Below, one piece after another: positions 13,092 to 52,283 of a stretch of 64,000 bases of DNA (position 1 is its first letter; each line of letters opens with the position of its first letter). The notes beneath the pieces were generated by a model. That model saw only the letters and a list, made by a program, of their open reading frames with translations. It searched no databases and was not told where the DNA came from. The translations under genes were made by a program, and so were the position numbers. Source of the stretch: Pseudomonadota bacterium (GTDB taxonomy: Bacteria > Pseudomonadota > Gammaproteobacteria > JAADHS01); the NCBI GenBank assembly GCA_021821045.1, contig JAKACW010000008.1, positions 2,501 through 66,500 on the forward strand, in the 5' to 3' direction.

Positions 13092-13142
13092 CCCGTGGAA
13101 AGAAGCGCCAGGCGCGCCTCGGCGGGACTGACAACGACCAAC

Positions 13143-24604: not shown

Positions 24605-24638
24605 ACTTGGGTCCCCCGTGAGTTGTTCTAGTTACGGA

Positions 24639-25106
24639 TTATGGAATGACGGTCGTTTGATTCACGTTCTGCATCGCGGCGGCGGCTTTTCCTTGTTCGA
24701 GTGCTTTCGCGACCTCCGGCGGCATATATGTCTCGTCATGCTTGGCCAGAACTTCGTCGGCGATGAAAACGCCGGCGCCATCCAGCTTGCCTTGTGCGAC
24801 CACGCCCTGCCCTTCCTTGAAAAGGTCGGGAAGAATGCCGGTGTACATCACCGTGACTTCCTCGGCATTGTCGGTGACGGTAAAGGCGACGGTTAAGCCG
24901 TCGGCGACGCGCTGCATCGACCCCTCTTTCACCATGCCACCCAAACGGAAGGCCTTGGCAACCGGGGCCTCTTTGGCGGCCACTTGCGACGGACTGAAGA
25001 AGAACATCATGTTTTGTTGGAAGGCGAACAGGACTAACGTCGCGGCGATGCCGATACCGACCACACCCGCTGCCACAAACACCAATCTTTTTTGTCTCGG
25101 TTTCAC
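24639..25106 (-). CDS. ccmE: Haem chaperone CcmE
   Basis: 155 residues: N-terminal anchor (about 8-29) and an OB-fold periplasmic domain. The covalent haem ligand is H123, with Y127, in [15 protein letters not shown] start, overlapping the ccmD stop (GTGA). Carries haem from CcmABCD to CcmF. Confidence 0.95.
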
Positions 25107-25270
25107 GCCGACTCCCTCTCTTTGATTCTTATCATTCGACTAAGCTGATGCAGGATGGTTCGGCGGCGGCGGCGCAACATTAACACCTCAACCAAAAGGC
25201 AAACCGCGACCATACCGTAGGAGCCCCACACGAAAAAGGCGTATTTTCCCATGTCGAAGTATTCGGCCAC
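25103..25270 (-). CDS. ccmD: Small membrane protein CcmD
   Basis: 55 residues, found by translating the gap between ccmC and ccmE. GTG start three bases after the ccmC stop; the stop overlaps the ccmE start. It has one transmembrane helix ([20 protein letters not shown]) followed by a basic RRRRR stretch, the CcmD layout. It helps release holo-CcmE from the CcmABC complex. An internal ATG at 25252 is an alternative start. Confidence 0.9.
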
Positions 25271-25273
25271 CGC

Positions 25274-26038
25274 TTACGCATCCCCGCTTTTGACTAAGTC
25301 TTGCACCCAATCGTTGTTTTTCTCGCGCTCCACCATCTCGCAGCGAACCCGATACAACGCAACCGCAATCGTGTAACACCAAAAACAAAAAGTCATTAGA
25401 AGCATTGCGACAAACATGCTGTCGGTCATGCTCAAGGCGCGTTGATCGGCGCCCGCCGGGTTGAAGTTAATGCTCGAGCCTTGATGAAGCGTGCTCCACC
25501 ACTTAACGGAAAAGTAAATGATCGGCACATTGACGACGCCGACGATGGCCAGCAAACCCGTGGCGCGATCCGCCCGCCGTGGATCCTCGATAGCCGAGGC
25601 CAACGCGATGTAGCCAATATATAGAAAGAAGAGGATAAGCTGGGAGGTCAAGCGTGCGTCCCACACCCAGTAGGTGCCCCAGGTGGGTTTCCCCCACAGG
25701 GCGCCAGTCCACAACCCAAGAAACGCAAAGATCGCCCCCGTCGGCGCCAACGCACTGCCCATCATGAAGGACAAGCGGGTCTTGAAAATCATGCCGACGA
25801 TGGCCCAAAACGCCATGACGACGTAAATAAACATGGACATCCAGGCCGCCGGCACGTGGATAAACATGATTTTGTAGGACTGACCCTGCTGCCAGTCCGC
25901 CAGCGGCGCGACGAAGAAGCTCACGTACAGCCCCACCAATCCGAACAGCACCGCCGCCGCGGTGAACCAAGGAATCATGCTGCCGGCAAGGGGGTAGAAG
26001 CTTGCAGGGGATGAATACTTAAACCAGTTGATAGACAC
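25274..26038 (-). CDS. ccmC: Haem exporter/handling protein CcmC
   Basis: 254 residues with six predicted membrane helices and the WWD-type segment WGTYWVWDARLTSQL plus conserved external His (IFIHVP-like MFIHVPAAW). CcmC attaches haem to CcmE. 119 bases separate it from ccmB with no gene in between, so an internal promoter is possible. Confidence 0.95.
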   Translation of the reverse strand: MSINWFKYSSPASFYPLAGSMIPWFTAAAVLFGLVGLYVSFFVAPLADWQQGQSYKIMFIHVPAAWMSMFIYVVMAFWAIVGMIFKTRLSFMMGSALAPTGAIFAFLGLWTGALWGKPTWGTYWVWDARLTSQLILFFLYIGYIALASAIEDPRRADRATGLLAIVGVVNVPIIYFSVKWWSTLHQGSSINFNPAGADQRALSMTDSMFVAMLLMTFCFWCYTIAVALYRVRCEMVEREKNNDWVQDLVKSGDA

Positions 26039-36970: not shown

Positions 36971-37696
36971 TCAGCGAATCGTCGAGGGCGACGGCGCGAT
37001 CAGATCGTGATTAGGTTGAGTGGCCGAAGGAAAATCCGCATTTAAACTATTACGATCCTCCCAACGCTGCCCTTGCTCGGCGAGCCATTGGGCTTCGGCC
37101 TTGGGCAACGGTCCGCGCTTTAGCTCCTCCCCCCACTCCCACAATGCCGAGCGCGCCTTTTTGACGTAGGGGTCATCCGGCGGCGCGAGGTGGATGTAAC
37201 TGCGCATTGCACCCAGGGCCGCCTCTTTGTCGCCCAGTTTCTCCAACGCCACGGCCAGGCCCCAATAGGCATTGCCTTGATAGGCATTGAGTCGAATCGC
37301 ATTGGCGAAAAAGTCTCCGGCCGCCTTATATTTGTTCAGTCCCAACAATGCAAAGCCCATGTTGACGTGGGCTTCGGGCATGTTTGGCGAAAGCTCGATC
37401 ACACGGTGCAGGGCCGTCACCGCAAACTCGTACTGCTTGGCGTGCAACATCGCCACGGCCTGCTCGAACCGCGTATTGAGCTGGTTCATGCGCGCTTGTT
37501 TGGCGTGGCCTTGGGGGTCGAGGGCGGGATCGATTGCCTGAACTCCCGCCACCGTTGCGCTCGGGGTGCTGAACGCAAACTCGGGACGCTGGACGAAACC
37601 GAATAGCATGGCCAGTGCGGCAACCAACAGTCCAAGGCCGATCACGCCCGCGTAGCGTTCTTGTTTTGACTCCATTGCCAGTACGCTATTCATCAC
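36971..37696 (-). CDS. Membrane-anchored TPR protein
   Basis: 241 residues: N-terminal transmembrane helix (about 17-36) and TPR repeats (about 75-185; AHVNMGFALLGLNKYKAAGDF, AYWGLAVALEKLGDKEAAL). Last gene of the 15-kb cytochrome cluster; its ATG overlaps the ccsA stop. By analogy with CcmI it may present apocytochromes to the ResB/CcsA pair, which is inference. Confidence 0.87.
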   Translation of the reverse strand: MMNSVLAMESKQERYAGVIGLGLLVAALAMLFGFVQRPEFAFSTPSATVAGVQAIDPALDPQGHAKQARMNQLNTRFEQAVAMLHAKQYEFAVTALHRVIELSPNMPEAHVNMGFALLGLNKYKAAGDFFANAIRLNAYQGNAYWGLAVALEKLGDKEAALGAMRSYIHLAPPDDPYVKKARSALWEWGEELKRGPLPKAEAQWLAEQGQRWEDRNSLNADFPSATQPNHDLIAPSPSTIR

Positions 37697-38547
37697 ACCA
37701 CGCCCTTGTGCGCCGCTTCACTGTAAAACGGAAAACCGAAATAAGTAAAAAATGCGAATACGAACAATCCGACAATCGCGGCGGAACTCCACAGCGTCGG
37801 GACGCGATAAGTGAAGCGAATGTGCAACGCCATCCCCAGAGCCAGCCAGTTGATGAACGCCGACGTCTCCAGGGGATCCCAAGCCCAGTAGCGTCCCCAT
37901 GCATCCTGCGCCCACACCGCGCCAGCGATCAACATCAGACTTTCGAACACCAAAGCCAGCAGCATGAAGCGCCACGCGTGGTTGTCCAATACATCGTCGT
38001 CCGGCAGTACCCGCAAATACGGCGCAAGGCGCTTGACTCGACGCAACAAGACGATACCGGCGAAACCGGTTCCGATCAGGCAAAACGCCAGGAAAAACTT
38101 GCCGAAGCCGACATGAGCCCATTTCCAATTGTTGAAGTATGTCGGCGGATTGGGCACGGCGGTCGGCTCGAGAACGAGCACCCAGAGGCCCAACACCCAA
38201 AGTATCGGCAATACGACAACCGAGGTGGGGCGCAACACCGGGAAACGCCAATAGGCAACGACGTAAACCAGCCCAAGGCTGAACAACTGACTGACGATCA
38301 GCTCAAAAAGATTTACGAAAGGTCCGTGGCCGATGCGAATCCAGCGCTCGGCCAGCGAAATCGTCAACAATGCCACGCCGACGACAAGCAGCGTCAGGAC
38401 AGCATTTTCTTGCCCCCGCACCGCCATAGCACCTGCCGAGCGGGCATGGGCGACCTGGACGCTGCGAAACGCCGCGAAGGTCGCCAGCGCATACGCGGCC
38501 AGTCCCGCCCACAACCACGGCAATTCTGTCGCGTGACCGTCCATCAT
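37693..38547 (-). CDS. ccsA: CcsA/ResC-like haem-handling protein (System II)
   Basis: 284 residues, about eight membrane helices. The haem-binding WWD-type motif is WGRYWAWDPLETSAFINWL, with conserved His around. CcsA and ResB form the System II haem transporter/synthetase. It is coupled at both ends: its start overlaps the ResB stop and its stop overlaps the TPR gene. The genome therefore carries System II parts as well as a full Ccm system. Confidence 0.9.
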   Translation of the reverse strand: MMDGHATELPWLWAGLAAYALATFAAFRSVQVAHARSAGAMAVRGQENAVLTLLVVGVALLTISLAERWIRIGHGPFVNLFELIVSQLFSLGLVYVVAYWRFPVLRPTSVVVLPILWVLGLWVLVLEPTAVPNPPTYFNNWKWAHVGFGKFFLAFCLIGTGFAGIVLLRRVKRLAPYLRVLPDDDVLDNHAWRFMLLALVFESLMLIAGAVWAQDAWGRYWAWDPLETSAFINWLALGMALHIRFTYRVPTLWSSAAIVGLFVFAFFTYFGFPFYSEAAHKGVV

Positions 38548-39590
38548 CAGACCACCCTTCCCGTCGTCGGACGGGGATCGTCCGCAACCGGCACTCGTCC
38601 GCCGACCGGATCGGCGGCGCGCAACGGCTGCAGGGAAAACTTGCGCCGAAAGTGGATGAACAAACCAAGCACGCTCAGCATGGACGCGCCGAACAGCGCA
38701 TGCAGCGTGGGGTCATAAAAAATCTTATAGCCCATCCAGGTCGCCAAGTGATCGTAAGTCAGATCGCCGCCGCCGACGGCGGCCGTTTCGCCGGGCCGCA
38801 GTTCGATTCTGCTGTCGCCAACAAACACCACCAAGGTACTCTCCGGCGTCTTCTCGTTAAGTATCCACGCATTTTTTTCATCGAGCCCGGTATCCATGCG
38901 CAGCCACAATCGCACGGTTTCCCCTGTAGGCGTCGTCCAATCGTTTTCTTGTTTGTGCTCGAACAAGGGATAGGACGGCATATGCACGGCGCCCTGCATG
39001 CTCGAACCATCGATGCCCTTCCAGGTCAGCACCGGCGCGAACCCCTTGTTGAATGACGTATAGAAACGATAGCCGTCGATGACGAGGGGGCGATCGTCGC
39101 CGACGACTTTGTCTTGCCAAGAACCGTCGTCACCTTTCACGCGCACATAGCTGTGGGTCAAGCCGCGTACCATTCCCGGGTGATACTCCACGGTGTAACG
39201 TCCTTGCACGAATTCGATGTGATGCAGATCGTCTGAGTGCAGCGGCCCCTTCTTAACGTTGAGAGTATCCTCCACGCCGAACACGTTGCCCTCCAGCATC
39301 TCGACATGGGCCTCGAAGAACGTCAGTCGTCCAACGGCGGCGAGAACGGCTATGGACAGCAAGCCCACATGGAACACCAACAAGCCGCCTCGGCGGTAAA
39401 TCCGCGAGTTGGTGGTGATGGCCACCAGCAGGCTCACCGCAAGAAAGGCCAGCGGCCCGGCGAGGTACCAAGCCGAGACCGATTCCGGATTGCCGTAGCT
39501 CATCACCGAACCGACGCCCAGCGCAACCATGCCAATGATGGCTGTCTTGGGCGAGCCGAGAGACTTAATCGATTTGACAAAAGTGTTCAT
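38547..39590 (-). CDS. resB: ResB/Ccs1-like protein (System II)
   Basis: 347 residues. Three N-terminal membrane helices (about 15-32, 45-60, 70-88), a large periplasmic domain (about 95-285), and a C-terminal helix (about 290-310), a compact ResB layout. Conserved features include RGGLLVFHVGLLSI near the third helix, with a His that may bind haem, and FYDPTLHALFGASML. Works with CcsA in haem attachment. Confidence 0.88.
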   Translation of the reverse strand: MNTFVKSIKSLGSPKTAIIGMVALGVGSVMSYGNPESVSAWYLAGPLAFLAVSLLVAITTNSRIYRRGGLLVFHVGLLSIAVLAAVGRLTFFEAHVEMLEGNVFGVEDTLNVKKGPLHSDDLHHIEFVQGRYTVEYHPGMVRGLTHSYVRVKGDDGSWQDKVVGDDRPLVIDGYRFYTSFNKGFAPVLTWKGIDGSSMQGAVHMPSYPLFEHKQENDWTTPTGETVRLWLRMDTGLDEKNAWILNEKTPESTLVVFVGDSRIELRPGETAAVGGGDLTYDHLATWMGYKIFYDPTLHALFGASMLSVLGLFIHFRRKFSLQPLRAADPVGGRVPVADDPRPTTGRVV

Positions 39591-39626
39591 ACAAAAATCG
39601 GGTTAATCCGACCTCAAGACTTACCT

Positions 39627-39738
39627 TGTGGGAGCGATTTCCTACCGCGATTCTTCGCCGATTCAACCGCGGAACGATTCGCTCCCACACATAAAAAGCC
39701 GAACTAGCGTGGTGTAGGAGCGATTTCCAACCGCGATT
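39627..39738. repeat. Three REP-like units
   Basis: TGTGGGAGCGATTTCCTACC + GCGATT (39627-39652), an inverted copy ending in CGCTCCCAC (about 39659-39689), and a third direct copy GTGTAGGAGCGATTTCCAAC + CGCGATT (39712-39738). They fill the gap between the 11-haem cytochrome and resB and could form strong mRNA hairpins that separate their expression. Confidence 0.8.
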
Positions 39739-39755
39739 GTGAGCGCCTCCAATCC

Positions 39756-42452
39756 CTACGGCGGATTGGTACACGCCTCGTTGGAGGCCTGCATCCAAGT
39801 GGCGCCGACCGCCGCATTGCCCGGCGCACCCGCCGATCCGCAGTTCGCGGCCATCCACTCGCCGCTACGGGCGAAATTCTTCACCTTTACCGTCGCACCG
39901 TTGTAGTAAGGATACTTGTAATAGCGGCTGACCGTCTGGTTGCGCACCTGGGTGCCAGCGGGCAAACCACCTTCGGCACCGACGTCGTTCAAATTGGCCA
40001 GGAACACTTTGTTCTTCCAGCCATGGGGCACGGCGATATGACAATACGTGCAGCGCAGCGGCGCCAAGCCGGGCGTGTTGCCAAGATACTGCGCATGGGC
40101 AACGTGCGCATTGGTCTCGACGGCCGTACCAATACACGATCCCGGAGACCCCGTCTGGACGCGCTTGAATCCGCTTTGCAGCGCACCGATCAACGGACCC
40201 GGAGGATAAATCTCACCGTACTGACTGTAATCATGGCACTTGAAGCACAAGTGCTCGCCCGCGTTCGCGTCTTCGCCGCCCCGCGGCGTCACGATGGTGG
40301 ATCCGGTTTGATCGCTCCACGGACCTTTCAGCAAGAACACATTCTCCGAACCGTGCGGACCCCACACATTGCCTTGCGCACCGCCCGTTGGCACAGCCGT
40401 CCCTGCCTCGGTGTCGTTGCCATGGCAATCGGTGCAGTACATGGTTTGGATGCCCACGCCCATATTGAACGGCGTCAACCAAACATTCGGGCTCGAAATG
40501 CCGCGCACCGATTCGGTACGGCCGGTCGTTTCCATGACCGGATGCCAAGAACGATGGTTGTTAGCTTGGAAGTCCACAGTGTAGCTTTGACCGTCGGGCA
40601 AACCGCGGAACGCGCCGCTGGGTGTGGGCGACGTTCCCTCGCCTTTATGATCCGCCGGCGATTGGAACTCCATGCCTTGGTTGGTGTAGTACGTCATCAC
40701 TTCGCCGCCAGAGGCGGTGACACCGGTAATGCCCGGCAGCGTTTGTCCCGACGTTCCGCCCAGCGGCGGCGGCGTGTCGTAGCCGTAGTTGGAGTGACAC
40801 TTCATGCAGACTTGGTACTCGCGGGTAACGTGGGACGCGGTCACGGCAGTGCTGCCCGCCGTTCCCGGATCGCCGCGCTTGACCTCGAACACCGTCGGAT
40901 TGGCGCCAAACTCGGTTGATTCCCACGCCACCGGTTGCACGCCGAAAATTCCGCGCAGCACGCCGGAAGCAATGTTGGTGTGAGTGCCTTCTGGATTGTT
41001 GGCCAGAATATCGGCGGAAGAATGGGGATGGGTGCCTTCCTCGGCGTCGGGAACGGTGTTGTCCTGCCAGAACAGCCGATTGCGCGATACCCGGTGTGGG
41101 TTGTGGCAATCGGTGCACTCGACGTGACGATTGACAATCGTGCCCTGGGTACCGCTCTTGTTGACGGCGCTGGCCTTGCCCATGTTGGCCGGCGACTCGA
41201 CGAAGTCCTTGCCGCCTTGATGAATGTCGAGACTGCCGATGTCGTGAATCTGAGGGCCGACGAGTTGTTCGTCATTGGTGATGGGCATGTGCCGGTTGCC
41301 CACGGTCGTGAAGTCCGTCTTGATATCGGGAACGCCGAAACCAGGCCGCGTCGCCTGACCCTGCAGCACATCGCCATCGGCGGAGTGACAGGCATAGCAC
41401 GTTTCTTCAATAGCGGGATCGCCTCCCAGTTTATAGAACGCGCCCTCTGCGGTTTGCGCTGTGCTGCCGTCCACGCCTTCGCGCAGGATGCGCCGCGAAC
41501 CCTGCACCGTGTGAGGATCGTGGCAATTCAAGCACGCGGCCTGCCAGACCTGGGTGCCCTGAGGAAACTCGCGCAGATTCGCCGCAGCGCTAGTGTAGGT
41601 GTAGGTTGCGACGTTGGGGTTGGCGTGGGCCGAACCCACCCAGCCGGCTTTGTCATGACATCCCAAGCAAATGATGTCGTTCTCGGCGCTGAACTGTTTG
41701 TCTACCGGCGGTCCTTGCTGGAAGCGGTTCACGCGCAAAAACTTGATGTTCTCACCGGAGGTGTCGCGAATGTGTGGATCGTGACATGAAATGCATTCCA
41801 CTTTGTTGTCCTCAAGCGGCAACAACGGTCGGTCGACGCCGCGCGCACGCACGCCCAGGTGGCTCACTGCATTCGGATCGTACAACTCGCCGTCCCGCTC
41901 CGCTTGAGCGGAATCGAAAGTGAATGAAATGGGGTGATCGTTGCTCAGATCAACACCTAAACGACGCGTGTATCCGGTATTAGCGCCCAAACCCGCGGGA
42001 ATGGTGTCATCCGCGCCGATGCCAGGCCCGGTGAAATCGACCGTTGGATTTTCGACGCGATTGAGCACATTCACCGAACCCAAGGCCAGCGTGCCGTCAT
42101 GACAGGACAAACACAGTTTCGATTTACCGCCCGGCTGACCCAAGTCAACGGCGTCGAGCGATCCCGAGTCATATGTCGTATAAGTGGCGTTGGAGAGTGT
42201 GCGATTCCAAATCGGCGCCTTCGGCTCCAACGTGCCGCCGTGGGGCGTGTGACAAAATGCGCAAATCTGCGACTCGCTGGTGGCGTGCGCGTCGCGCTGC
42301 GCCGTACCGGGCAGATCGGGAATGATGGTCGCCGAAAAATTATGCTTGGTGTTGCGAATATCGGAAATGCGCTCAGCCAACGCGGAGGAACCCACCGCGC
42401 CGCCCAGCCACAACATCAACGCAACCATGACCCGCTTGCGCAGCGCTGTCAT
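39756..42452 (-). CDS. Secreted undecaheme c-type cytochrome
   Basis: 898 residues with a signal peptide (MTALRKRVMVALMLWLGGAV...) and eleven CXXCH motifs: CAFCH, CLSCH, CISCH, CLGCH, CLNCH, CYACH, CTDCH, CMKCH, CTDCH, CFKCH and CTYCH. Several read CxxCH-DPH/NPH, giving nearby His ligands. At ~80 residues per haem it is sparse, so large non-haem segments separate haem groups. It shares NTKHNF and NDHPISFTF with the pentaheme and tetraheme paralogs. The start at 42452 (GGGGGAGAGGC upstream) overlaps the NHL gene stop. Best guess: a cell-surface or outer-membrane terminal electron acceptor or donor. Confidence 0.93.
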   Translation of the reverse strand: MTALRKRVMVALMLWLGGAVGSSALAERISDIRNTKHNFSATIIPDLPGTAQRDAHATSESQICAFCHTPHGGTLEPKAPIWNRTLSNATYTTYDSGSLDAVDLGQPGGKSKLCLSCHDGTLALGSVNVLNRVENPTVDFTGPGIGADDTIPAGLGANTGYTRRLGVDLSNDHPISFTFDSAQAERDGELYDPNAVSHLGVRARGVDRPLLPLEDNKVECISCHDPHIRDTSGENIKFLRVNRFQQGPPVDKQFSAENDIICLGCHDKAGWVGSAHANPNVATYTYTSAAANLREFPQGTQVWQAACLNCHDPHTVQGSRRILREGVDGSTAQTAEGAFYKLGGDPAIEETCYACHSADGDVLQGQATRPGFGVPDIKTDFTTVGNRHMPITNDEQLVGPQIHDIGSLDIHQGGKDFVESPANMGKASAVNKSGTQGTIVNRHVECTDCHNPHRVSRNRLFWQDNTVPDAEEGTHPHSSADILANNPEGTHTNIASGVLRGIFGVQPVAWESTEFGANPTVFEVKRGDPGTAGSTAVTASHVTREYQVCMKCHSNYGYDTPPPLGGTSGQTLPGITGVTASGGEVMTYYTNQGMEFQSPADHKGEGTSPTPSGAFRGLPDGQSYTVDFQANNHRSWHPVMETTGRTESVRGISSPNVWLTPFNMGVGIQTMYCTDCHGNDTEAGTAVPTGGAQGNVWGPHGSENVFLLKGPWSDQTGSTIVTPRGGEDANAGEHLCFKCHDYSQYGEIYPPGPLIGALQSGFKRVQTGSPGSCIGTAVETNAHVAHAQYLGNTPGLAPLRCTYCHIAVPHGWKNKVFLANLNDVGAEGGLPAGTQVRNQTVSRYYKYPYYNGATVKVKNFARSGEWMAANCGSAGAPGNAAVGATWMQASNEACTNPP

Positions 42453-43525
42453 GCCTCTCCCCCTTGCCCCAAAAACTCCAAAACGACCACGCGGCCGTTG
42501 AACATATCTGCGATGTACACCCAGTTGCGTGAATCGACCCACACGCCCGCCGGCAAATAAAACTGACCCGGCGCCGGCCCTTCACCACCAATGGGCAGCA
42601 GAAATTCTCCTTTGGAATTGAATACTAACAAATGATCGTAATAGGATTCTACCACGTAAATCAGGCCGTTTTCGGCGGCTGCCACGCCCTTGGGTCGGGG
42701 CAAGTTGCCGACGAATATGCCGCGTTCGCCGAAGGTCGACACGAACTTGCCCGCCGGCCCAAAAATCTGTATGCGCGAGTTAAGCGTATCGGCGACGAAC
42801 AGTTGACCGCCCGTAAAACTCAAATGGGTGGGCGAATTCAATTTCCCCGGGGTCTCGCCGTGCTCGCCGAACTGCGCGACAAATCGCCCGTCCGCCTCGA
42901 AAATCTTGATGGCGTGTTCGCGGGTGTCGGAAACGTACAATCGTCCGGTGGCCGGATCGCGAGCAATGCCGGTGGGATGGGTTAAATGATCTTTGCCAAA
43001 GCGCCCCTTGGGCTCACCGTCGCGATCCAAGCGAAACACTTCGCCGTGGCTCGAGTCGGTCACCAACAGCTCCCCTTGCTCGCCGACTGCCACGGCAATG
43101 GGCGTCAGAAAGCGCAAGAACTCGGCCGCGAACTCGAATTCGCGGAATTGGCCGGCCACTGGATCGAACACGCAAACGGCTTGCTTGCTGACGTCGGTGA
43201 CGATGACACGACCGTCTTGGTCGACCACCACACCCTGCGGCCGCTGGAGAATGCGCGGCTGGCGCGGCCCCGTGAAGACACCGGCCACCCATTTCAAGAA
43301 CCGAACCGGAGCGGATTCGGACATTCGATCGACAGGGAAATTATCCTCGCCGGTCAATTGCCCCACATAGCGAAACCGCGGCGTCTCGGGCGGCTGGGGC
43401 CAAACCAGGCTGGCAGGCGAAGCTTCATAAACAAAATTGGGTTTAGTGGTCGCGCAACCCGTCAGGACGGCACCGAAACAAACCAATGCCCAAAGGCGGG
43501 CGGACGCCACCCTCGTCAGTGTCAT
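42449..43525 (-). CDS. NHL-repeat beta-propeller lipoprotein
   Basis: 358 residues. Lipobox VLTGC (C24), then NHL blades (GELLVTDSSHGEVFRLDRDG, GRLYVSDTREHAIKIFEADG, GQLFVADTLNSRIQIFGPAG, NWVYIADMFNGRVVVLE). Overlaps its neighbours by four bases on each side, so it is made together with the second NHL lipoprotein and the 11-haem cytochrome. Shares its N-terminal Pro-rich motif with the lipoprotein at 13143-14213. Confidence 0.9.
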   Translation of the reverse strand: MTLTRVASARLWALVCFGAVLTGCATTKPNFVYEASPASLVWPQPPETPRFRYVGQLTGEDNFPVDRMSESAPVRFLKWVAGVFTGPRQPRILQRPQGVVVDQDGRVIVTDVSKQAVCVFDPVAGQFREFEFAAEFLRFLTPIAVAVGEQGELLVTDSSHGEVFRLDRDGEPKGRFGKDHLTHPTGIARDPATGRLYVSDTREHAIKIFEADGRFVAQFGEHGETPGKLNSPTHLSFTGGQLFVADTLNSRIQIFGPAGKFVSTFGERGIFVGNLPRPKGVAAAENGLIYVVESYYDHLLVFNSKGEFLLPIGGEGPAPGQFYLPAGVWVDSRNWVYIADMFNGRVVVLEFLGQGGEA

Positions 43526-44667
43526 TGCGTCGGCTGTTCTTGCTGGGCCGAAACCGGCAGGAGCGGCGCGGGCTCGACCACACGCAACACTTGAATGCGC
43601 CCGTTCAGACTATCGGCGACATATAAAAACTCGCCGCCAACCCACAAATCCGTGATTCGCTTGAATTGCCCGGGTCCGACCCCGGTACGGCCAATACTGG
43701 ATAGAAACTTGCCGCGCGTGTAGACCTTGATCGAGTTGTCGATGTAGTCGCCCAAGAACACATGAAAGTTCTCGTCCACCGCCATGGCAAAGGGAAACAC
43801 GACACCCATTTGATCGAGCGAATACAGATAATCGCCGTTGCCGGACAACACCTGAACATGCTGCCCCACCCGGGCGCCAACATAAAAACCATCCGGCCCG
43901 ACCGCCATTGTCGTGATGTTCAAAAACTGGCCCGGCTCTTGTCCACGGCCGCCGACCGCGCCGATCAGTTCACCCGGCTCTGTGAACACCAGGACATGAT
44001 CAAAATGGGCATCGGCCACCAAGATATTGCCCGTGGCCGAATCTTGGGCGATAGCCACCGGGCGCGCAAGATTGAGCTTGTTCTGAAAAGTGCGTAGCAG
44101 CCTGCCCTTGGGACTGAAATGAAGCACCCGGGATCCAAAGGTGTCGGCGACATAAAAGGAGAAGTCCTTGGCGACATAGATATCCGCGGGTTCACCCGCG
44201 GTGACGCCGTGCAACTCGACGATGCGATCCATGCGGGCGGTGGTCTTGTCGTAGCGCAACACCAAGCCCAGTCCCTCGTCGACGATATAGAGATACTGCT
44301 CTCGAACGGATATCGCGATGGGATTGATCAGTTCGATGTAGTCGCCGCCGGTAATCATGTCGGCGACGCTCATAGCTCGGGAATCGGGACCGCTGAAACC
44401 ACCGCGTATGGTCTCCCAGTACACCAACATTTCGGATGTCTCTGGCAAGACCGGCAGGGGCTCCAGCTCCGGCACGACGAGTTCCTCGCCGAGACGGGTT
44501 TCGTCGCTGGCGACCTCAAGGGACGTTTGATCTTCCTCTTTGTCCCAGGGCCAGATTTTTTTTGCGGTCTGCTGAATGCTGGCGCAACCGGACAGCGCCA
44601 GCACGACGCACACACACAGTCCCGCGGTTAACGCAGCCCGGGACTTTGTCGCGGAACTGAATGGCAT
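43522..44667 (-). CDS. NHL-repeat beta-propeller lipoprotein
   Basis: 381 residues. Lipobox LALSGC (C28), an acidic spacer, then NHL blades (SFYVADTFGSRVLHFSPKGR, GNILVADAHFDHVLVFTEPG, EFLYVADSLNGRIQVLRVVE). The ATG at 44667 is preferred over a TTG at 44676. Its first 40 bases overlap the end of the triheme cytochrome gene. Function not known; propellers of this kind recur beside multiheme cytochromes here. Confidence 0.88.
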   Translation of the reverse strand: MPFSSATKSRAALTAGLCVCVVLALSGCASIQQTAKKIWPWDKEEDQTSLEVASDETRLGEELVVPELEPLPVLPETSEMLVYWETIRGGFSGPDSRAMSVADMITGGDYIELINPIAISVREQYLYIVDEGLGLVLRYDKTTARMDRIVELHGVTAGEPADIYVAKDFSFYVADTFGSRVLHFSPKGRLLRTFQNKLNLARPVAIAQDSATGNILVADAHFDHVLVFTEPGELIGAVGGRGQEPGQFLNITTMAVGPDGFYVGARVGQHVQVLSGNGDYLYSLDQMGVVFPFAMAVDENFHVFLGDYIDNSIKVYTRGKFLSSIGRTGVGPGQFKRITDLWVGGEFLYVADSLNGRIQVLRVVEPAPLLPVSAQQEQPTQ

Positions 44668-45236
44668 CGTCCACAATTCATTGTTGGAGGAAACGCGACT
44701 TTACCGTGGCACACGCCGCAGTATTTACCTTCGATGATCGCCGACATGGTGATGGGGTTGCCACCCTTCTGCGGCAAAAATATCGCCGGATGACAATTGG
44801 CGCAGGTCAGCCACTCGGTATGGGGTTTGTGGGGAAAGCGCACGTTCGGCATCGAACCGGTATTGGTGAACACGATGTCGAAGTCCGTCGGGAACATTTC
44901 CTCATCGCCCTTAAGACTCTTGCGCGGATTGATCATCCCCTGATCCAAGACCTTGACCCAATCGATGATGCCCTTATCATCGCGCGGAAAGTCGGCCATC
45001 GCCTCTACGGGCTCCTGCAACACTTTCACCACGGCCTGGTTGGTGGGATCGTGAATGCCGTCTTCCGCCAGTGGCACGACATCACCCTCGGTCTGGAAAT
45101 GGAGCCCGCGGGACCACAGGGCCTCGTTCGCAACCGCAGGGGAAGCCCATGCTATCGCGAGCAGCCCGACCGCCAGCAGCCGGCCCATGACGGAGCGCGG
45201 CAACCGGAACCACGCTCCGCGTCGTTCGATGTTCAT
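44628..45236 (-). CDS. c7-type triheme cytochrome
   Basis: 202 residues: signal peptide, about 100 residues without haem (GIHDPTNQAVVKVLQEP...), then a compact triheme domain with CANCH, CGVCH and CGRCH and bis-His candidates (VRFPHKPHTEWL). The core PAIFLPQKGGNPITMSAI/EGKYCGVCHGKVAF is shared with the two other triheme genes at 47-48.4 kb. This is the c(7)-type (nanowire 3-haem) domain known from metal reducers. The start at 45236 follows a run of A and precedes a normal signal peptide. Probably periplasmic. Confidence 0.9.
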   Translation of the reverse strand: MNIERRGAWFRLPRSVMGRLLAVGLLAIAWASPAVANEALWSRGLHFQTEGDVVPLAEDGIHDPTNQAVVKVLQEPVEAMADFPRDDKGIIDWVKVLDQGMINPRKSLKGDEEMFPTDFDIVFTNTGSMPNVRFPHKPHTEWLTCANCHPAIFLPQKGGNPITMSAIIEGKYCGVCHGKVAFPPTMNCGRCHSVPRQSPGLR

Positions 45237-45416
45237 GTTTTTTTTACCCCCCGAAACCCGGCGACTGAATCGTCGGCGCTTCACCCCTCGTGAGGTGTCA
45301 ATTTACTACAATTTGCGACGTGCTAGAAAGGTTACTTCAAGTGTGACCCGCAGCGCGGCGGGAAGATCCATTGTCGTTTTATTAATATCTACACTTTTTG
45401 TAAGTGACTGCCTGCG

Positions 45417-45443
45417 CCCACGGAGCGGCTGCCGCTCCGTGGG
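45417..45443. repeat. GC-rich 13-bp inverted repeat downstream of the cupredoxin gene
   Basis: CCCACGGAGCGGC and its exact complement around a single T. It lies just after the stop of the cupredoxin lipoprotein on the minus strand. No T-run follows, so it is more likely an mRNA-stabilising or attenuating hairpin than a full terminator. Confidence 0.55.
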
Positions 45444-45453
45444 GCGGTGCGAT

Positions 45454-47013
45454 TTACCGCACGCCGGCAATCATCAGCGCGCGCTTCAAGTTATCCGTTG
45501 CGGCCTGCAACGCTTGGATCGCGGTGGCATAGTCGCCACGCTCGGCATACGGCTTGCCTTCGCCGACGATGCGCTCCGCCTTGGCGACGAACTCATTCAT
45601 TATCTCGACTTGCTGAGCGGTCGGATGCCTCTGCTCGATGGCCAGCGGAATGAGTTCATGATAGCTCTCGTAGCGCGCCTGCTCGAACTCATACTCGTCT
45701 TGCGGCGATGCAAAATCCTGCTCATACACCACCGTGGACGACTCCATCACCACCGACAATGCCCCGGTGACCATGGCGGATGCCTTGTGCATACCTTCCG
45801 ACGCGGCTTTGTAATCGCCGCGCGCCGCGGCGTTCTCGGCGTCGCCAACCAGCTTGTTGAATTTGGCATCGTCGAACTTGGCGGTCAATTTGTCCGAACT
45901 CTGGTTTTTTACATTCCGTTGATACGACTTGTAGTAACCCTTCACTTCCTTGGAAAGTCCCTCGTAGTCGGCTTTATAGTCCTTCTCCACCAGCGTGGTC
46001 GCTGTCAGTCGAGTGGCTGCATTGAGCAACCGCAAGCCTTCGTCAACGGCAGCCATGGCCTGCGGATTGTCACCCTTATCCAGCAAAGTCTTGGCGGTTG
46101 TGAATTGGTTGGTTGCCTCGGTGACCAGCCCCTTGGCTTCCGCGTTGTCGCTAGCGCCGACCTTCTTGACGGAATCGGAACCGAGCAACATCTGGCCGTA
46201 GGCCATCTTCTGCTTCACTTGCTGCGCAGTTACCTTGAACGCGGGGCCGGACGTGTCGCCGACCGAATGCTGCTTGATCTTCGGCTTTTCACCCTTGTTG
46301 ACCACGTAGATCGCACCACCCATGAATTTGTGGTTGCGGCAGCCGTAATACAGCACATCCGGCGTGGTCGCGGTGGGTTTGAAGCCGACCAAACCCTGAT
46401 AGGTGAATTGGCCAGTCACACCGTCGGTATAGGTCGCGGCGCCCCATCCGGCCGGGGTGGTCGATAGATAAAAATCGTGTTGGACGCCTGTTTCAACATC
46501 GAATGTGTATGTCTCGCCACGGGTCACAACGACGTCCTTGCCCGCCACACCGTCAACATAGAATCCATGCTCGCTGCCCTGACCGAAAAAGGGGTGGGAT
46601 TTATCCTTGGGCGCGGACGTCACAAGGAACGTATTGGGGGAAGACGACTTCTTCGGAGCAGGTGTGTCGGCTTTCGCGGGTGCCGTCGGTTTTGCCGCCG
46701 TCACTGGCGGAGGGGCGGGCGCGGTCTCCGGCTTTTTAGCGGGCGCTGCTTCCGGTTCACCCATCGGCGCGGCATCGGCAACCGGTTTCACCGGTTCGGC
46801 CTTTGGCGCGGGGGTAACGATCGGCGCTTCAGGTTCGGGTTGCTTTGCGGCTGCCGCCGGCGCCGGCTGCACCGCCGGGCTTTCTTGTTTCGCTGGAGAG
46901 GGAGCGGCGGTAGGCTCGGGCGGCGCACTCGCGCACCCTGCCGCCAATGCGACAACGCACAACGTGCTCGCAAGCTTGAAGCAACCACTACCGTGTATCA
47001 CGCGTACCTTCAT
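45454..47013 (-). CDS. Lipoprotein with cupredoxin domain and helical C-terminus
   Basis: 519 residues: lipobox LAAGC (C27), a ~100-residue Pro/Ala/Lys linker (28-125), a cupredoxin-like beta domain (about 127-240), and a long helical region (about 255-519, including TPR-like LLDKGDNPQAMAAVDEGLRLL). A type 1 copper site is suggested by H179 (QHDFYL), C225, H228 and M231 (YYGCRNHKFMGG); the spacing C-x2-H-x2-M is tighter than in plastocyanin. Sits between triheme cytochrome genes, so it is a candidate copper electron-transfer link tethered to a membrane. No known family fits the whole protein. Confidence 0.85.
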   Translation of the reverse strand: MKVRVIHGSGCFKLASTLCVVALAAGCASAPPEPTAAPSPAKQESPAVQPAPAAAAKQPEPEAPIVTPAPKAEPVKPVADAAPMGEPEAAPAKKPETAPAPPPVTAAKPTAPAKADTPAPKKSSSPNTFLVTSAPKDKSHPFFGQGSEHGFYVDGVAGKDVVVTRGETYTFDVETGVQHDFYLSTTPAGWGAATYTDGVTGQFTYQGLVGFKPTATTPDVLYYGCRNHKFMGGAIYVVNKGEKPKIKQHSVGDTSGPAFKVTAQQVKQKMAYGQMLLGSDSVKKVGASDNAEAKGLVTEATNQFTTAKTLLDKGDNPQAMAAVDEGLRLLNAATRLTATTLVEKDYKADYEGLSKEVKGYYKSYQRNVKNQSSDKLTAKFDDAKFNKLVGDAENAAARGDYKAASEGMHKASAMVTGALSVVMESSTVVYEQDFASPQDEYEFEQARYESYHELIPLAIEQRHPTAQQVEIMNEFVAKAERIVGEGKPYAERGDYATAIQALQAATDNLKRALMIAGVR

Positions 47014-47260
47014 GACTCGCCCTCAACAGTTGTCGGCGCCGTTTCCGCCACAAAACGCCCCAAATGACGAACAACGCAACGTCGCCCGTGGAAACCAGTG
47101 ATTTAGGAATCGGACCGTTTGGCGCTTAGATAAGGGCATACTGATAATGGGCAGAGACAATGCTCTGCCAACCTGCGACATCGGCTGGTTTGCCCTGGCT
47201 GTTCTGCAACGCGGCCGATTCGCCAAATCCGCGAACCACTCAAGCGATCCCTAAGCGGAC

Positions 47261-47282
47261 ACCGCGGCCCGGAGGCCGCGGT
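47261..47282. repeat. Hairpin between triheme cytochrome and cupredoxin genes
   Basis: Perfect 9-bp stem ACCGCGGCC / GGCCGCGGT with a CGGA loop, 28 bases after the triheme stop on the minus strand. No U-run follows. The surrounding 296-base gap (47014-47309) otherwise shows nothing gene-like and may hold a promoter for the cupredoxin gene. Confidence 0.55.
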
Positions 47283-47309
47283 AATCCCAAAGACTGCTAA
47301 CTCTATCGC

Positions 47310-47981
47310 TTATTTCCACGGATTCTTTAACGTCGCCTCGCTCAACGGCGGTTTCCAGTCCGCAGGCTTCGGCTTAGAGTGGCATTTACGACAGGATTTT
47401 GTCGTGATCGGGAAAGAGACCTTGCCGTGGCAAACACCGCACTTTTGTCCCAGCAGGATCGCCGACATGCTGATCTGATTCGCGCCCTTCTGCGGTACGA
47501 AAATCGCAGGGTGGCAGTTCGAACACTCCAGCCACAGCGTATGCTGACGGTGCGGGAAGACAACATCCGGAACCGATGCTTTCACCGGGCGAACGATGTC
47601 GAGGTCAAGAACGAACGGTTCCGCGGTCGGGTCCAAGCGTTCCCAGCGCGGGTTCAACAAACCATCGTCCAGCGCCTTAACCCAGTCGACATGATTGCCG
47701 AACTCGGTTGTCGGCAAACCAACATAAGACTCTTTCGGCGCCTGAAGGATGTGCGTACCCGGATTCTCCGCGTCGTGGATGCCGTCTTCCGGCGGTGGCG
47801 CGTTCGGATCCTTGTCCTTTTTGAGGTTTCGGTTGAATGTATTGGCCGTGGAAACATCGGCCACCATCCAACTGCCCTCAGACTGAAACACACTCCCCTC
47901 GTCGGAGGCAATGGCCGCCGAAGAGCCGAATGCAAGCAGAAGAGCGCCTAAGGCGTAACTAGAAATCGATTTACGTACCAT
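47310..47981 (-). CDS. c7-type triheme cytochrome
   Basis: 223 residues: signal peptide (MVRKSISSYALGALLLAFGS...), an N-terminal spacer with GIHDAENPGTHILQAP (like the GIHDPTNQ spacer of the 44.6-kb gene), then haem motifs CSNCH, CGVCH and CRKCH with FPHRQHTLWL His ligands. Closest in layout to the gene at 44628-45236, so the two are duplicates. Follows the next triheme gene by 15 bases. Confidence 0.9.
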   Translation of the reverse strand: MVRKSISSYALGALLLAFGSSAAIASDEGSVFQSEGSWMVADVSTANTFNRNLKKDKDPNAPPPEDGIHDAENPGTHILQAPKESYVGLPTTEFGNHVDWVKALDDGLLNPRWERLDPTAEPFVLDLDIVRPVKASVPDVVFPHRQHTLWLECSNCHPAIFVPQKGANQISMSAILLGQKCGVCHGKVSFPITTKSCRKCHSKPKPADWKPPLSEATLKNPWK

Positions 47982-47996
47982 GGTCTGCTCCTCCCC

Positions 47997-48437
47997 TTAT
48001 TTCACTTGCTTCGTCGCGTCCAGCCCTTTGTAGGGCGGGGCAACTAGGCGCTGTACTGTGCTGCCGTGAAAGTGGGTTGGCGTGCCAGGAATACCCGAGT
48101 GGCACATATCGCAGTTTTCGACCGACCACGCGACCTCGCCGTTATGGCAGGCGCCGCAAAACTGGCCTTCGATGATTTTCGCCATGGTGATTTGATTTCC
48201 ACCGGCTTTGAACTTGAACCCAAGGTCCGCGTGGCAAACCTTGCAACGGAAGCGAATACGGTGAAACCAATGCGGAAATACCGCGGGGCGCATACCGGCC
48301 GCATCAGCATAATTGTTAATCACAACGTCCGCATATTCCGCTTTCGCTGGTCCAGACAACATGGCTGCAGCGAAAAACGCCGCAAGACCAAATGCCGCGA
48401 CCCTCCCTAAGCGTATGTGTCGGGCTATGCCTTTCAT
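47997..48437 (-). CDS. Short c7-type triheme cytochrome
   Basis: 146 residues: signal peptide, then CKVCH, CGACH and CDMCH with VFPHWFHRIRFRC His ligands. It lacks the long spacer of its two paralogs, but shares the GGNQITMAKI/EGQFCGACH core. The start at 48437 has GGGAGAT directly before it; an in-frame ATG 11 codons upstream is less good. Lies between the outer-membrane barrel gene and the second triheme gene. Confidence 0.9.
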   Translation of the reverse strand: MKGIARHIRLGRVAAFGLAAFFAAAMLSGPAKAEYADVVINNYADAAGMRPAVFPHWFHRIRFRCKVCHADLGFKFKAGGNQITMAKIIEGQFCGACHNGEVAWSVENCDMCHSGIPGTPTHFHGSTVQRLVAPPYKGLDATKQVK

Positions 48438-48577
48438 ATCTCCCACCTTCTCCTCGTTATTTACAAACAAATGGCAACTACATCAAGAACGCAGAATCGA
48501 CATACGCCTTGACGTTCCCGCACCCCTCCAGGCGCGTTGCCGTCCCATAGTATGCCAGATTCCATCCACAATAAATT

Positions 48578-50398
48578 CTAAAAGTGACGTTCGATTCGGA
48601 AAAATGTCAACCAGTAATCGAGATCTTCGTAATCAATATACCGAACCGAGAGGTTCGAAGTCAGCTGTCCGATCTGGTAGTCAAGTCGGTTTTCCCACTC
48701 GACCCGATCGAGTCCCTGCTCATCCGAAGCTATCGACCCGAGTACGCTAGACATAAACCCTAATTTCGGGATCCCGAAAATTGCGCTATCGCGATAATCG
48801 ATGCGGCCCGTCGTCGTCGTCACGCTCGAATCTTGTTTAACTCTTGTAAAGTCTTGCTCGACATGCTGAACCGTTAAATTTCCCGTTAAGGAACTGCGAC
48901 GAGTGATCTGCTGGGTTCGGTTTGCCTGAAAATTGTAGAACTGCTGGTCACCTTCGTCCCAGCCGAACCCGCGGCGGTCGGAAATCGTCAACCGGACATA
49001 GGACGCTGCCCCGCCGACATTGCGACTCCACCCCGCCGACACCGTGTGATCCAACCGCGTTTGCTGATCCTCGAACTCCGTGAAGTAACTTTCGGTCAGT
49101 GATTGGCTGCCGCTGATGCGGTAAATATGACCGCTTTCCTGGGCCCAGGACCGGGCAATGGTATGGGATGCGCCGCCGGCATAGGTCTGAAAAGCATCCG
49201 TGTTGCTGTCGTCCACGTTGTCCACGGTGCCGGTGCCAAACCAGTTATAGGTAAAGCCGCGCCACAGAATCAGGTCGGATTGATACAGCACGCCCGCATG
49301 CTGGCGGGTAACGTCCGATTCGATGTTGTTGCTGTCAATGGTTGAATAGGCGGCGCTGCCGTCGAAACGCAACCGTTTGTTGTATTGATAAAAGCCGCCG
49401 CCGGTGAGGCTGAGGTTCTGCGAGTCGTTCTTCAGCCCGTCATTCTCTCCGCTCATATCAAAGAGGCGCACGCCGCCGCTCAAACTCCAGCGGCTGTTGT
49501 CGGGCCGGAAGAAGATGAAACTCGACGCCTGGCTGATATCCGTCGTTCCTGTGCCGCTCTGGGTATTGGAACTGGGCACCTGGAATTCCCGCTCTGTGGC
49601 GTAGACGTTGGCCCGAGTGTCGATGCGAAAATCGCGGTTGGGCGTGAAGTAATGAGTCACATCCACCAAGCTGCTGTTGTTTTCTTCGGAGGAGACCGAG
49701 CGGCTGGCGCGCTGCATGCGGCCGTTAGCCGTCAAGCGCTGATTCTTTCCCTTGACGTCCAACTCGACGCCGCCGGCCTCGTCGCTGTAGTAGCCGCTGC
49801 GTTCGGAACTCCAGCGATTGTTGTCGTAGGTGGCATAGGCGCGGTGTCCGCCGTCGAACAGGTAACTCTGGCGCATCGCAAGCTTGTGCGTTTTGGAGTC
49901 GGCGTCACCAAGGATGATGAACGCGTCCGAGTCCAGCGCCGTGTTGTCGACGCGCGTATCGGAAACCGAGTAGCGCATGTAAAACGGGGCGCGGCTTTGC
50001 GGCAACACGTTGAGGTTAAAAACACCGGTAAGAATGCTGCTGTCCGTTTGATTGTATGTGGTCCCGTCTCCCGGATCGGGATCGGTGCTGGCCGAATCGT
50101 CCAGGGACAGCGTAAAACTGCCATCGGTCGTCGCGAACCACGGGCGATATATATAAGAGTTGCCGTGCACGGAACCGAGCAACTGTCGGCTCAAACTGCG
50201 CTGCCCCTCAGAGCCGTCCAGCAGCCGAAAATTGTACCCAAGACTTCCGGACCAATTCACCGGCGCCCACTCAACCGCATGGGTTGGACGGGCAAGCAGC
50301 GAACCAAACGCCATAGCGCATAGCATCATGCGCCGACGCGTTGGTCCTGAAGTCAGGATGTCAAATATCAACCGCTGCCCCTCCCGCACAAGCGCCAT
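48578..50398 (-). CDS. Putative outer-membrane beta-barrel protein
   Basis: 606 residues: an N-terminal export signal ending near RPTHA, then alternating amphipathic strands rich in aromatic, Ser, Thr, Asn and Asp (FRIDTRANVYATEREFQV, GGFYQYNKRLRFDGSAAYST) to a C-terminal ...RIERHF with terminal Phe, the OMP signature. No Cys and no haem. In porin-cytochrome complexes such a barrel sheathes a cytochrome; its place among five cytochrome genes suits that. It cannot be assigned to MtrB/PioB from sequence alone. The leader is long, so the true start could be M24 or M25. Confidence 0.8.
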   Translation of the reverse strand: MALVREGQRLIFDILTSGPTRRRMMLCAMAFGSLLARPTHAVEWAPVNWSGSLGYNFRLLDGSEGQRSLSRQLLGSVHGNSYIYRPWFATTDGSFTLSLDDSASTDPDPGDGTTYNQTDSSILTGVFNLNVLPQSRAPFYMRYSVSDTRVDNTALDSDAFIILGDADSKTHKLAMRQSYLFDGGHRAYATYDNNRWSSERSGYYSDEAGGVELDVKGKNQRLTANGRMQRASRSVSSEENNSSLVDVTHYFTPNRDFRIDTRANVYATEREFQVPSSNTQSGTGTTDISQASSFIFFRPDNSRWSLSGGVRLFDMSGENDGLKNDSQNLSLTGGGFYQYNKRLRFDGSAAYSTIDSNNIESDVTRQHAGVLYQSDLILWRGFTYNWFGTGTVDNVDDSNTDAFQTYAGGASHTIARSWAQESGHIYRISGSQSLTESYFTEFEDQQTRLDHTVSAGWSRNVGGAASYVRLTISDRRGFGWDEGDQQFYNFQANRTQQITRRSSLTGNLTVQHVEQDFTRVKQDSSVTTTTGRIDYRDSAIFGIPKLGFMSSVLGSIASDEQGLDRVEWENRLDYQIGQLTSNLSVRYIDYEDLDYWLTFFRIERHF

Positions 50399-50476
50399 GG
50401 CGGCGCCTGTTCCCCAAATCTATCCCCATTTACCGGCGCGAGTGGAACCCCATTCACTCCGCGCCTTGCGCCTAGA

Positions 50477-51430
50477 TCACAGCGCCCCTTCAGCGACCGC
50501 AATTGGCGTCGTTTGTCGTAATTTGTCGATTAATGCCTGCCACGCCGCTTGTGATCGTTCATTCACCAACAGGACGCGCGCGCGATCCGCAACGTTCTCG
50601 AATGGATTGAGGTGCGACGGCTTTCTCTCCTCGACCCGAAACAACGCAACGCCCTGGAGCAGCGGCACCGGCTCGGATACCGTTCCGAGCGCCAGTTGCT
50701 CGACAACCCCTTCCACCTCCGGCGCCAGACGACCCTTGTGGACAAAACCCAGATCGCCCCCCTTGGCCGCACTCTCGTGCTTCGAATACTCCCGCGCCAC
50801 CACATCAAATGCGTCGCCCTGATCCACAATGCGCTTGCGCAGTCCGACAGCCTGGTCATGGGCGGTCTGCCACTCCTCTTTCGGCGCATAAGGCGGCACG
50901 CCGAGCAGTATCACCGACAAGCGCAACTGCTCGGGCGCGGTGAACTTGTCCGGGTACTGCGCATAAAACGCCTTGACGTCGGCATCCGACACCACGACTT
51001 GCGTCCGTAATTGCTCACGCAACGCGGCCATGTGCTCGGCCAAGATCTGCGGCGTGGATGCGCCACTCTCAGCGTGTTGCGCTACCAAACCGCGGCGCGC
51101 CGCCTCCTGAGCCGCCAAGTAGTGGTCAATCAATTCTTGAGTGATCTCCCGCTGGGCCCGGGCCATTTCCTCGTGAATTAGTCGACCATGAAAATACTTC
51201 TGTCGTAAGCGCTGAGCCAAAAAGCCGTGATACTCGTCGAGCGTAATCTCTTGGCCGCCAATTCGCGCGAAGATCCCTTCGGGCAGCTTGTCCGCCACGG
51301 CCGCCATCGCCGGGCCGACCAACAACGCCAACCCAAACGCCCAGCCTCCCAGCCAGCGGAAACGTCGGACGCGCCGCTGCACACGCCGGCAATCGTTATG
51401 AACAATGCAGCCGACCCGGTTTAATGTCAT
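50477..51430 (-). CDS. Parvulin-type peptidyl-prolyl isomerase (SurA/PrsA-like)
   Basis: 317 residues: export signal (about 25-45), an N-terminal helical SurA-like chaperone part, and a parvulin domain (about 160-270; GGDLGFVHKGRLAPEVEGVV). GGGGGAG sits upstream of the ATG. It sits between the barrel and the tetraheme cytochrome, so it likely folds one of these exported proteins. Similar isomerases occur next to secreted multiheme cytochromes in metal reducers (from memory, to be checked). Confidence 0.9.
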   Translation of the reverse strand: MTLNRVGCIVHNDCRRVQRRVRRFRWLGGWAFGLALLVGPAMAAVADKLPEGIFARIGGQEITLDEYHGFLAQRLRQKYFHGRLIHEEMARAQREITQELIDHYLAAQEAARRGLVAQHAESGASTPQILAEHMAALREQLRTQVVVSDADVKAFYAQYPDKFTAPEQLRLSVILLGVPPYAPKEEWQTAHDQAVGLRKRIVDQGDAFDVVAREYSKHESAAKGGDLGFVHKGRLAPEVEGVVEQLALGTVSEPVPLLQGVALFRVEERKPSHLNPFENVADRARVLLVNERSQAAWQALIDKLRQTTPIAVAEGAL

Positions 51431-51446
51431 ACGTCCGCTCCCCCCG

Positions 51447-52283
51447 CTACTTCGCGTGGCAGGTTAAACAAACGGCGCTGCCCGCCGGATCCACACGCAA
51501 AAACGTGGGATTGTAATCCACATGGGGGTCATGACAGGACGCACACTCCACGAACGGCTGGGGCTCACCGGCATAGGCACCCGCCGAGCCGACGCGCGTA
51601 TAGAGCTTCATATCCGTGCGCTCGAATCCGGCGGAACCGCCGGCGTTCAGCGTATTAACCCACCAGACGCGATTCGTTCCCATGATCTCCGAATCGGCTC
51701 GATTGAAATCCGGATCCTTGCCCGGTCCTTCCGGGTTGGTGAGCGAATAACCTCCGCCGGCATACTGGATCCCGATGGGGTGGTCATTGGTGAGATCTTT
51801 GCCGAGATTGGTAATGACGTCCGGTGGGCCGATTCGACCGTCGACCGTCGAGGCTTGTCCGCTCCACCGTCCGGCCGAGAACCCGGGATGATCGCGCCCG
51901 GACCCCGGCTCGTTGAGCAGCGCGTCCATGGCCTGGGTACCGTCGTGACAAGACAAACACGCCAGCGACACCGACCCAACCTCCTCGACGTTGGCATCGA
52001 GGGTGGTGGTGCCCATTTGATCGTAAGTCTGAAAGCCGTTGGGATCTAAGTGACGATTCCAGATCGGAACCGCCGCTTCGCCGTCGCCGCCATGCGGGGT
52101 GTGGCAGAAGACGCAAATCTCGCGCGTGCCGCTGAAGTTGCTCGCGGCGTTGACTCCCGTGGAGCCAAGATTATGTTTCGTATTGAAAATACCCGCAACG
52201 GCGCCGCCGGCTGCCCAAAAAAACAACAGCCCCGCGATCCCCACCCGTACCGCTGGGATTCTTGCGCTCCAACTCGTTTTCAT
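51447..52283 (-). CDS. Secreted tetraheme c-type cytochrome
   Basis: 278 residues: signal peptide (about 1-30) and CVFCH, CLSCH, CASCH and CLTCH. Six extra His (NTKHNL, CHTPHGG, NRHLD, RDHPG, NDHPIG, CHDPH) suffice for bis-His ligation of all four. It begins with NTKHNL and ends with CLTCHAK, like its paralogs. First gene of the 15-kb cluster. Four haems, a CHDPH motif and a terminal CHAK resemble extracellular filament cytochromes, but that is only a hypothesis. Confidence 0.92.
   Translation of the reverse strand: MKTSWSARIPAVRVGIAGLLFFWAAGGAVAGIFNTKHNLGSTGVNAASNFSGTREICVFCHTPHGGDGEAAVPIWNRHLDPNGFQTYDQMGTTTLDANVEEVGSVSLACLSCHDGTQAMDALLNEPGSGRDHPGFSAGRWSGQASTVDGRIGPPDVITNLGKDLTNDHPIGIQYAGGGYSLTNPEGPGKDPDFNRADSEIMGTNRVWWVNTLNAGGSAGFERTDMKLYTRVGSAGAYAGEPQPFVECASCHDPHVDYNPTFLRVDPAGSAVCLTCHAK

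Follow-up and report, generated by a model that had tools for sequence, protein, structure and literature searches.

The closest described counterpart of the locus considered here is the uetABCDEFGHIJ cluster, named for 'undecaheme electron transfer' (PMC12575090), which is carried by cathode-oxidising Tenderiales and by six Gallionella genomes, and in which UetA is an extracellular tetraheme cytochrome, UetB a peptidylprolyl isomerase, UetC a beta-barrel, UetDEG periplasmic triheme cytochromes, UetHI NHL proteins and UetJ an undecaheme cytochrome (PMC10734462). In Candidatus Tenderia electrophaga, the triheme genes Tel_16515, Tel_16520 and Tel_16530, which lie around the TPR-protein gene Tel_16525, and the undecaheme gene Tel_16545 were put forward as possible components of electron transfer, and the trihemes were among the highest-expressed genes at the cathode (PMC5371394). 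UetJ and an associated porin have also been recorded in genomes of the Leptothrix group (PMC13386937). We examined a 64,000 nt stretch of a gammaproteobacterial genome (GenBank assembly GCA_021821045.1, contig JAKACW010000008.1, positions 2,501 to 66,500; hereafter the window), in which the segment 36971–52283 very probably represents a complete copy of uetA–J, that is, a Uet-type surface electron conduit, together with its own System II haem-attachment genes.

Identification of a uet operon

The locus includes 13 genes, all on the minus strand and reading in one direction, and the ends of adjacent genes are nearly contiguous or overlap (for example G/H, H/I, ResB/CcsA and CcsA/TPR). The genes are:

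51447..52283, minus strand: UetA, secreted tetraheme cytochrome, OmcE-type homologue by profile (paired-CXXCH family; 4 CXXCH; PDB 7TFS, E 4e-38)
50477..51430, minus strand: UetB, periplasmic parvulin-type prolyl isomerase (PpiC rotamase PF00639, E 1.6e-16)
48578..50398, minus strand: UetC, predicted 28-strand outer-membrane barrel (AlphaFold pLDDT 90.5; Foldseek MtrB 6r2q_B, E 1.7e-8)
47997..48470, minus strand: UetD, triheme c7-type cytochrome, highly conserved and used as the search marker (TIGR04257, E 1.5e-18)
47310..47981, minus strand: UetE, triheme c7-type cytochrome with a long N-terminal extension (TIGR04257, E 8.7e-17)
45454..47013, minus strand: UetF, lipoprotein with a Pro/Ala-rich linker, a cupredoxin-like domain and a helical TPR-like C-terminal part (lipobox AAGC)
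44628..45284, minus strand: UetG, triheme c7-type cytochrome (TIGR04257, E 1.8e-19)
43522..44676, minus strand: UetH, NHL/six-bladed propeller lipoprotein (PF17170/PF01436; lipobox LSGC)
42449..43525, minus strand: UetI, NHL propeller lipoprotein (PF01436, E 1.7e-31; lipobox LTGC)
39756..42542 (likely start near 42452), minus strand: UetJ, secreted undecaheme cytochrome with an OmcE-like N-terminal module (paired-CXXCH family; 11 CXXCH)
38547..39590, minus strand: ResB, System II cytochrome c maturation (PF05140)
37693..38547, minus strand: CcsA, System II haem handling (PF01578, E 8.8e-20; WWD-type motif WGRYWAWDP)
36971..37696, minus strand: TPR protein linked to ResB-CcsA (TPR families; order kept in relatives)

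Most of this inventory had been drawn up in an earlier note made from the sequence, and its gene count, coordinates, strand, overlapping ends and CXXCH counts (4 in UetA, 3 each in UetD, UetE and UetG, and 11 in UetJ) were all recovered, as were the parvulin and the two NHL lipoproteins, which matched the PpiC rotamase and NHL families. The cytochromes of the locus have signal-peptide-like N-termini, judged by eye, and lipoboxes are found on UetF, UetH and UetI. In family scans, all three trihemes exceeded the cut-off for TIGR04257 ('nanowire_3heme') and matches to cytochrome c7 families were found among them, while neither the barrel gene nor the cupredoxin gene gave a confident match to a curated family.

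The order of the genes is that of the published uetA–J, letter for letter (tetraheme, isomerase, barrel, two trihemes, TPR-type protein, triheme, two NHL proteins, undecaheme), and the window has the ten gene types of Ca. Tenderia electrophaga and the Tenderiales in the order that their lettering implies. The locus was identified as Uet because both content and order match the published description, and here the operon continues into ResB-CcsA-TPR. The earlier note had regarded the composition as unusual and as matching no system that could be named. This view cannot be maintained and a new, unnamed system was rejected, since uetA–J is already in the literature; the operon is of a known type and the present locus is a further member.

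Conservation and distribution of the operon

Searching contigs from public genomes with UetD yielded 256 relatives, and 80 loci were kept for comparison. The A–J order is found in essentially all of these approximately 80 loci, as far as the contigs extend, including those in a metagenome-assembled genome of Ca. Tenderia and in Magnetococcales, Rhodocyclaceae and Nitrosomonadales. As the order recurs in loci of different species, the association of the genes is far beyond chance, and the gene-order search that the earlier note proposed as a possible refutation found the genes together. In an even draw of 369 genomes of the class, the UetD marker was present in 45 (E ≤ 1e-20). Haem numbers are also well preserved, with three haems in 80 of 80 UetD homologues and 11 motifs in 53 of the 57 UetJ homologues.

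In five relatives from the same class, A–J is either complete or interrupted only by the end of the contig, and ResB and CcsA follow in four of the five. One locus from Candidatus Tenderia sp. (L045), on a contig that ends within uetF, encodes proteins with 78 % (A), 38 % (B), 34 % (C), 76 % (D), 79 % (E) and 49 % (F) identity to those in the window. Where sufficient downstream sequence was available, ResB was present in 33 of 48 homologous loci, and 13 of the 15 loci without ResB have an additional NHL gene upstream of uetA. In two loci (L093 and L094), uetI runs directly into ResB with no recognised UetJ, and the undecaheme cytochrome may have been lost, replaced or become too divergent.

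UetC is a predicted MtrB-like barrel

Structure prediction with AlphaFold, using a 59-sequence alignment, produced a confident all-beta fold for UetC with 28 long strands (mean pLDDT 90.5), in agreement with the outer-membrane barrel proposed previously. The top PDB match in a Foldseek search was MtrB of the Mtr complex (6r2q_B, E 1.7e-8, TM approximately 0.44), with many other outer-membrane barrels ranking below it. No Pfam or NCBIfam family was matched in family scans, in which UetC fell outside PF11854, and searches of the UetC profile against PDB sequences and of UetC against PHROGs returned nothing. UetC is thus modelled as a large barrel that is MtrB-like among solved structures and is not, by sequence, of the MtrB family.

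Membership of the MtrAB/MtoAB group was excluded, despite the MtrB-like fold, by the PF11854 test and by a test for a DmsE/MtrA-type decaheme cytochrome: no PF11854 (MtrB_PioB) barrel was found genome-wide, and UetJ scored 35 bits against TIGR03508, for which the cut-off is 192. Though MtrB is the closest solved structural match, the uet locus differs from MtrCAB/MtoAB in the low TM value, in the family placement of UetC and in having several small trihemes in place of an MtrA-type decaheme. In iron oxidisers, the PCC3 system of the Gallionellaceae also pairs a predicted porin with multiheme cytochromes on both the periplasmic and the extracellular side, but its periplasmic and extracellular subunits have 21–27 and 10–35 haems, respectively, and the uet gene set is distinct from it (PMC10734462).

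UetA and UetJ are related to the filament cytochrome OmcE

When the UetA profile was compared to the PDB, OmcE of Geobacter sulfurreducens (7TFS) gave a full-length match that took in all four haem motifs (E 4e-38), followed by 9YUQ (E 1.5e-37), a 16-chain entry described as a 'putative multiheme cytochrome c', and then by OmcS (E 4e-5); no enzyme was matched at a meaningful E-value. Exactly eight His residues are invariant across 39 UetA sequences, four in the CXXCH motifs and four others, and all eight positions are present in the OmcE and 9YUQ alignments. Judged on these alignments, UetA is a full-length homologue of filament-forming OmcE. The 7TFS structure is that of the OmcE filament (PMC12954529), in which one haem ligand is inter-subunit (PMC12307469, PMC12954529). 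The two proteins differ in size (278 residues for UetA and 232 for OmcE), and the operon of UetA additionally encodes a barrel and an undecaheme cytochrome. The N-terminal approximately 230 residues of UetJ also match OmcE in a profile search (E 9e-32).

These findings bear on whether the locus might instead encode a periplasmic multiheme redox system, such as an N- or S-oxyanion reductase or a haem store, rather than an extracellular conduit. The c7 domains do resemble periplasmic cytochromes, and the location of the products is read from their sequences. However, a barrel is predicted with MtrB as its top match, UetA resembles a cytochrome of extracellular filaments and matched no enzyme at a meaningful E-value, and its conserved His residues could provide every haem with two His ligands, so that none is evidently left open for catalysis. 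Neither a non-barrel UetC nor ordinary periplasmic reductases, the other outcomes that the earlier note had set against a trans-envelope conduit, were found, and we consider a periplasmic system very improbable. The MtrB-like barrel, the secreted multiheme cytochromes, the conserved gene order and the published Uet proposal all argue for the trans-envelope electron conduit.

A second OmcE/UetA-like secreted cytochrome with five CXXCH motifs and a C-terminal CETCHIK is encoded at 12354-14213 (plus strand), approximately 25 kb from the uet operon, and is followed directly by a gene for an NHL lipoprotein. Weaker UetJ-like matches in the size class of this cytochrome were seen in relatives L018-L021. 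Beside it, at 9884-12102 (minus strand), are two adjacent proteins in which CXXCH cytochrome c domains of class-I type are repeated.

Two forms of UetF

The cupredoxin lipoprotein reported in the earlier note is upheld in part: the lipobox and a conserved putative copper site stand, while curated copper families gave no match and PDB matches to the domain were marginal. The cupredoxin-like domain lies at about residues 126-241, and, of the aligned homologues that span the region, 61 keep the candidate ligand H179, 63 keep C225, and 62 each keep H228 and M231. The Cys-His-Met spacing, C-x2-H-x2-M, is amicyanin-like. Amicyanin (E 0.3) and pseudoazurin (E 0.31) were the marginal, non-significant matches of the domain to PDB profiles, and the whole-UetF profile gave only chance matches to designed or helical proteins in the PDB. 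Because the type-1 copper ligand set is kept in almost all gammaproteobacterial homologues that reach it, the cupredoxin-like assignment appears well supported but is not proven.

The cupredoxin segment is present in 62 of the 80 loci. The remaining 18 are made up of seven gammaproteobacterial contigs that end before it and 11 loci from Magnetococcales or betaproteobacteria (L096, L098–L107), and in these 11 any UetF that was recognised is short, at about 300–317 aa, and the locus contains an additional triheme gene. On the predicted proteins, the Uet family divides cleanly into two architectures, with and without the segment. Neither this division, the cupredoxin itself, the homology of UetA to OmcE nor the OmcE-like module of UetJ is reported in the Uet literature examined, which did not include the founding paper (Eddie 2022), and priority was not checked.

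Cytochrome maturation and direction of electron flow

The adjacent ResB (PF05140, 40.6 bits, cut-off 24.6) and CcsA (PF01578, 71.7 bits, cut-off 29.9) both exceed their family cut-offs, and this ResB is the only one found in the genome, which bears out the private System II set described earlier. CcmF-size and CcmC-size Cytochrom_C_asm matches belonging to System I (Ccm) lie in the same window at about 23723-26011 (minus strand); hence, the host carries System I and System II genes in the same neighbourhood.

In the most plausible arrangement, UetA and UetJ would form the outer, surface-exposed chain in contact with an external electron source, and UetC would serve as the outer-membrane channel for the haem chain. 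UetD, UetE and UetG would relay electrons across the periplasm, joined in gammaproteobacteria by the copper domain of UetF. UetB would fold the secreted cytochromes, UetH and UetI may act as propeller scaffolds, and ResB-CcsA-TPR would load haem onto the large cytochrome set.

The direction of flow was considered separately. Four RuBisCO-family matches were found in the host genome and autotrophy is likely, though such matches can include RuBisCO-like proteins. Inward flow is favoured because of the published hosts and these RuBisCO-family genes, and because no MtrB/PioB-family barrel was found; on balance, the conduit probably supports autotrophic growth by taking up electrons from minerals or other solid donors. 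The same conduit might run outward, with partner cells or extracellular oxides of Fe(III) or Mn receiving the electrons. Among solved structures, UetA is closest to OmcE, which Geobacter uses in metal reduction (PMC12307469). An undecaheme cytochrome is cited for a manganese-reducing Dechloromonas (PMC13264449), and so the flow may be reversible or opposite. As most described Uet bearers are cathode or iron oxidisers and the host has RuBisCO-family proteins, an outward direction seems rather unlikely.

Electron uptake through a Uet conduit must also be weighed against several points besides the Dechloromonas report. The Uet system is itself a prediction in the publications examined, and a conduit role in this organism is deduced from its genes. 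No NapC/CymA family member scored above the cut-off genome-wide, no obvious quinone-linked inner-membrane partner is encoded at the locus, and the AlphaFold model of UetJ had a pLDDT of only 48.5 and was discarded.

A more specific and tentative proposal, which we think possible though not the likelier outcome when all of its parts are taken jointly, is that the operon builds an OmcE-type nanowire, in which UetA subunits would assemble into an extracellular filament and the OmcE-like N-terminus of UetJ would dock this filament onto the barrel. Autotrophic iron or cathode oxidisers would then draw electrons in through the filament, with a UetF copper relay in the gammaproteobacterial branch, in place of which the Magnetococcales/betaproteobacterial branch has its shorter UetF and additional triheme cytochrome. 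Both the polymerisation of UetA and the docking of UetJ are what we infer from the OmcE homology. Uet is a widespread candidate for electron uptake that can now be set beside a structurally solved nanowire family, and a vague 'porin–cytochrome' prediction is converted into testable claims, namely polymerisation of UetA, a role of the UetJ N-terminus as cap or base, and copper binding by UetF. These claims bear on how electroautotrophs and neutrophilic iron oxidisers draw electrons from solids.

Further multiheme cytochromes in the genome

A fourth TIGR04257 triheme protein is encoded outside the operon, on contig C73 (37805-38008; L121), among response-regulator-type genes. Another contig of this genome, C126, carries a cluster of giant multiheme open reading frames at about 4.8-22.7 kb (L127, L128), with 73, 37, 33, 21 and further CXXCH motifs. 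The giant cytochrome reading frames are 1833, 1022, 869 and 566 aa long, and 73 motifs in one reading frame is very high. This cluster resembles the PCC3-type giant-cytochrome loci more than the uet locus does.

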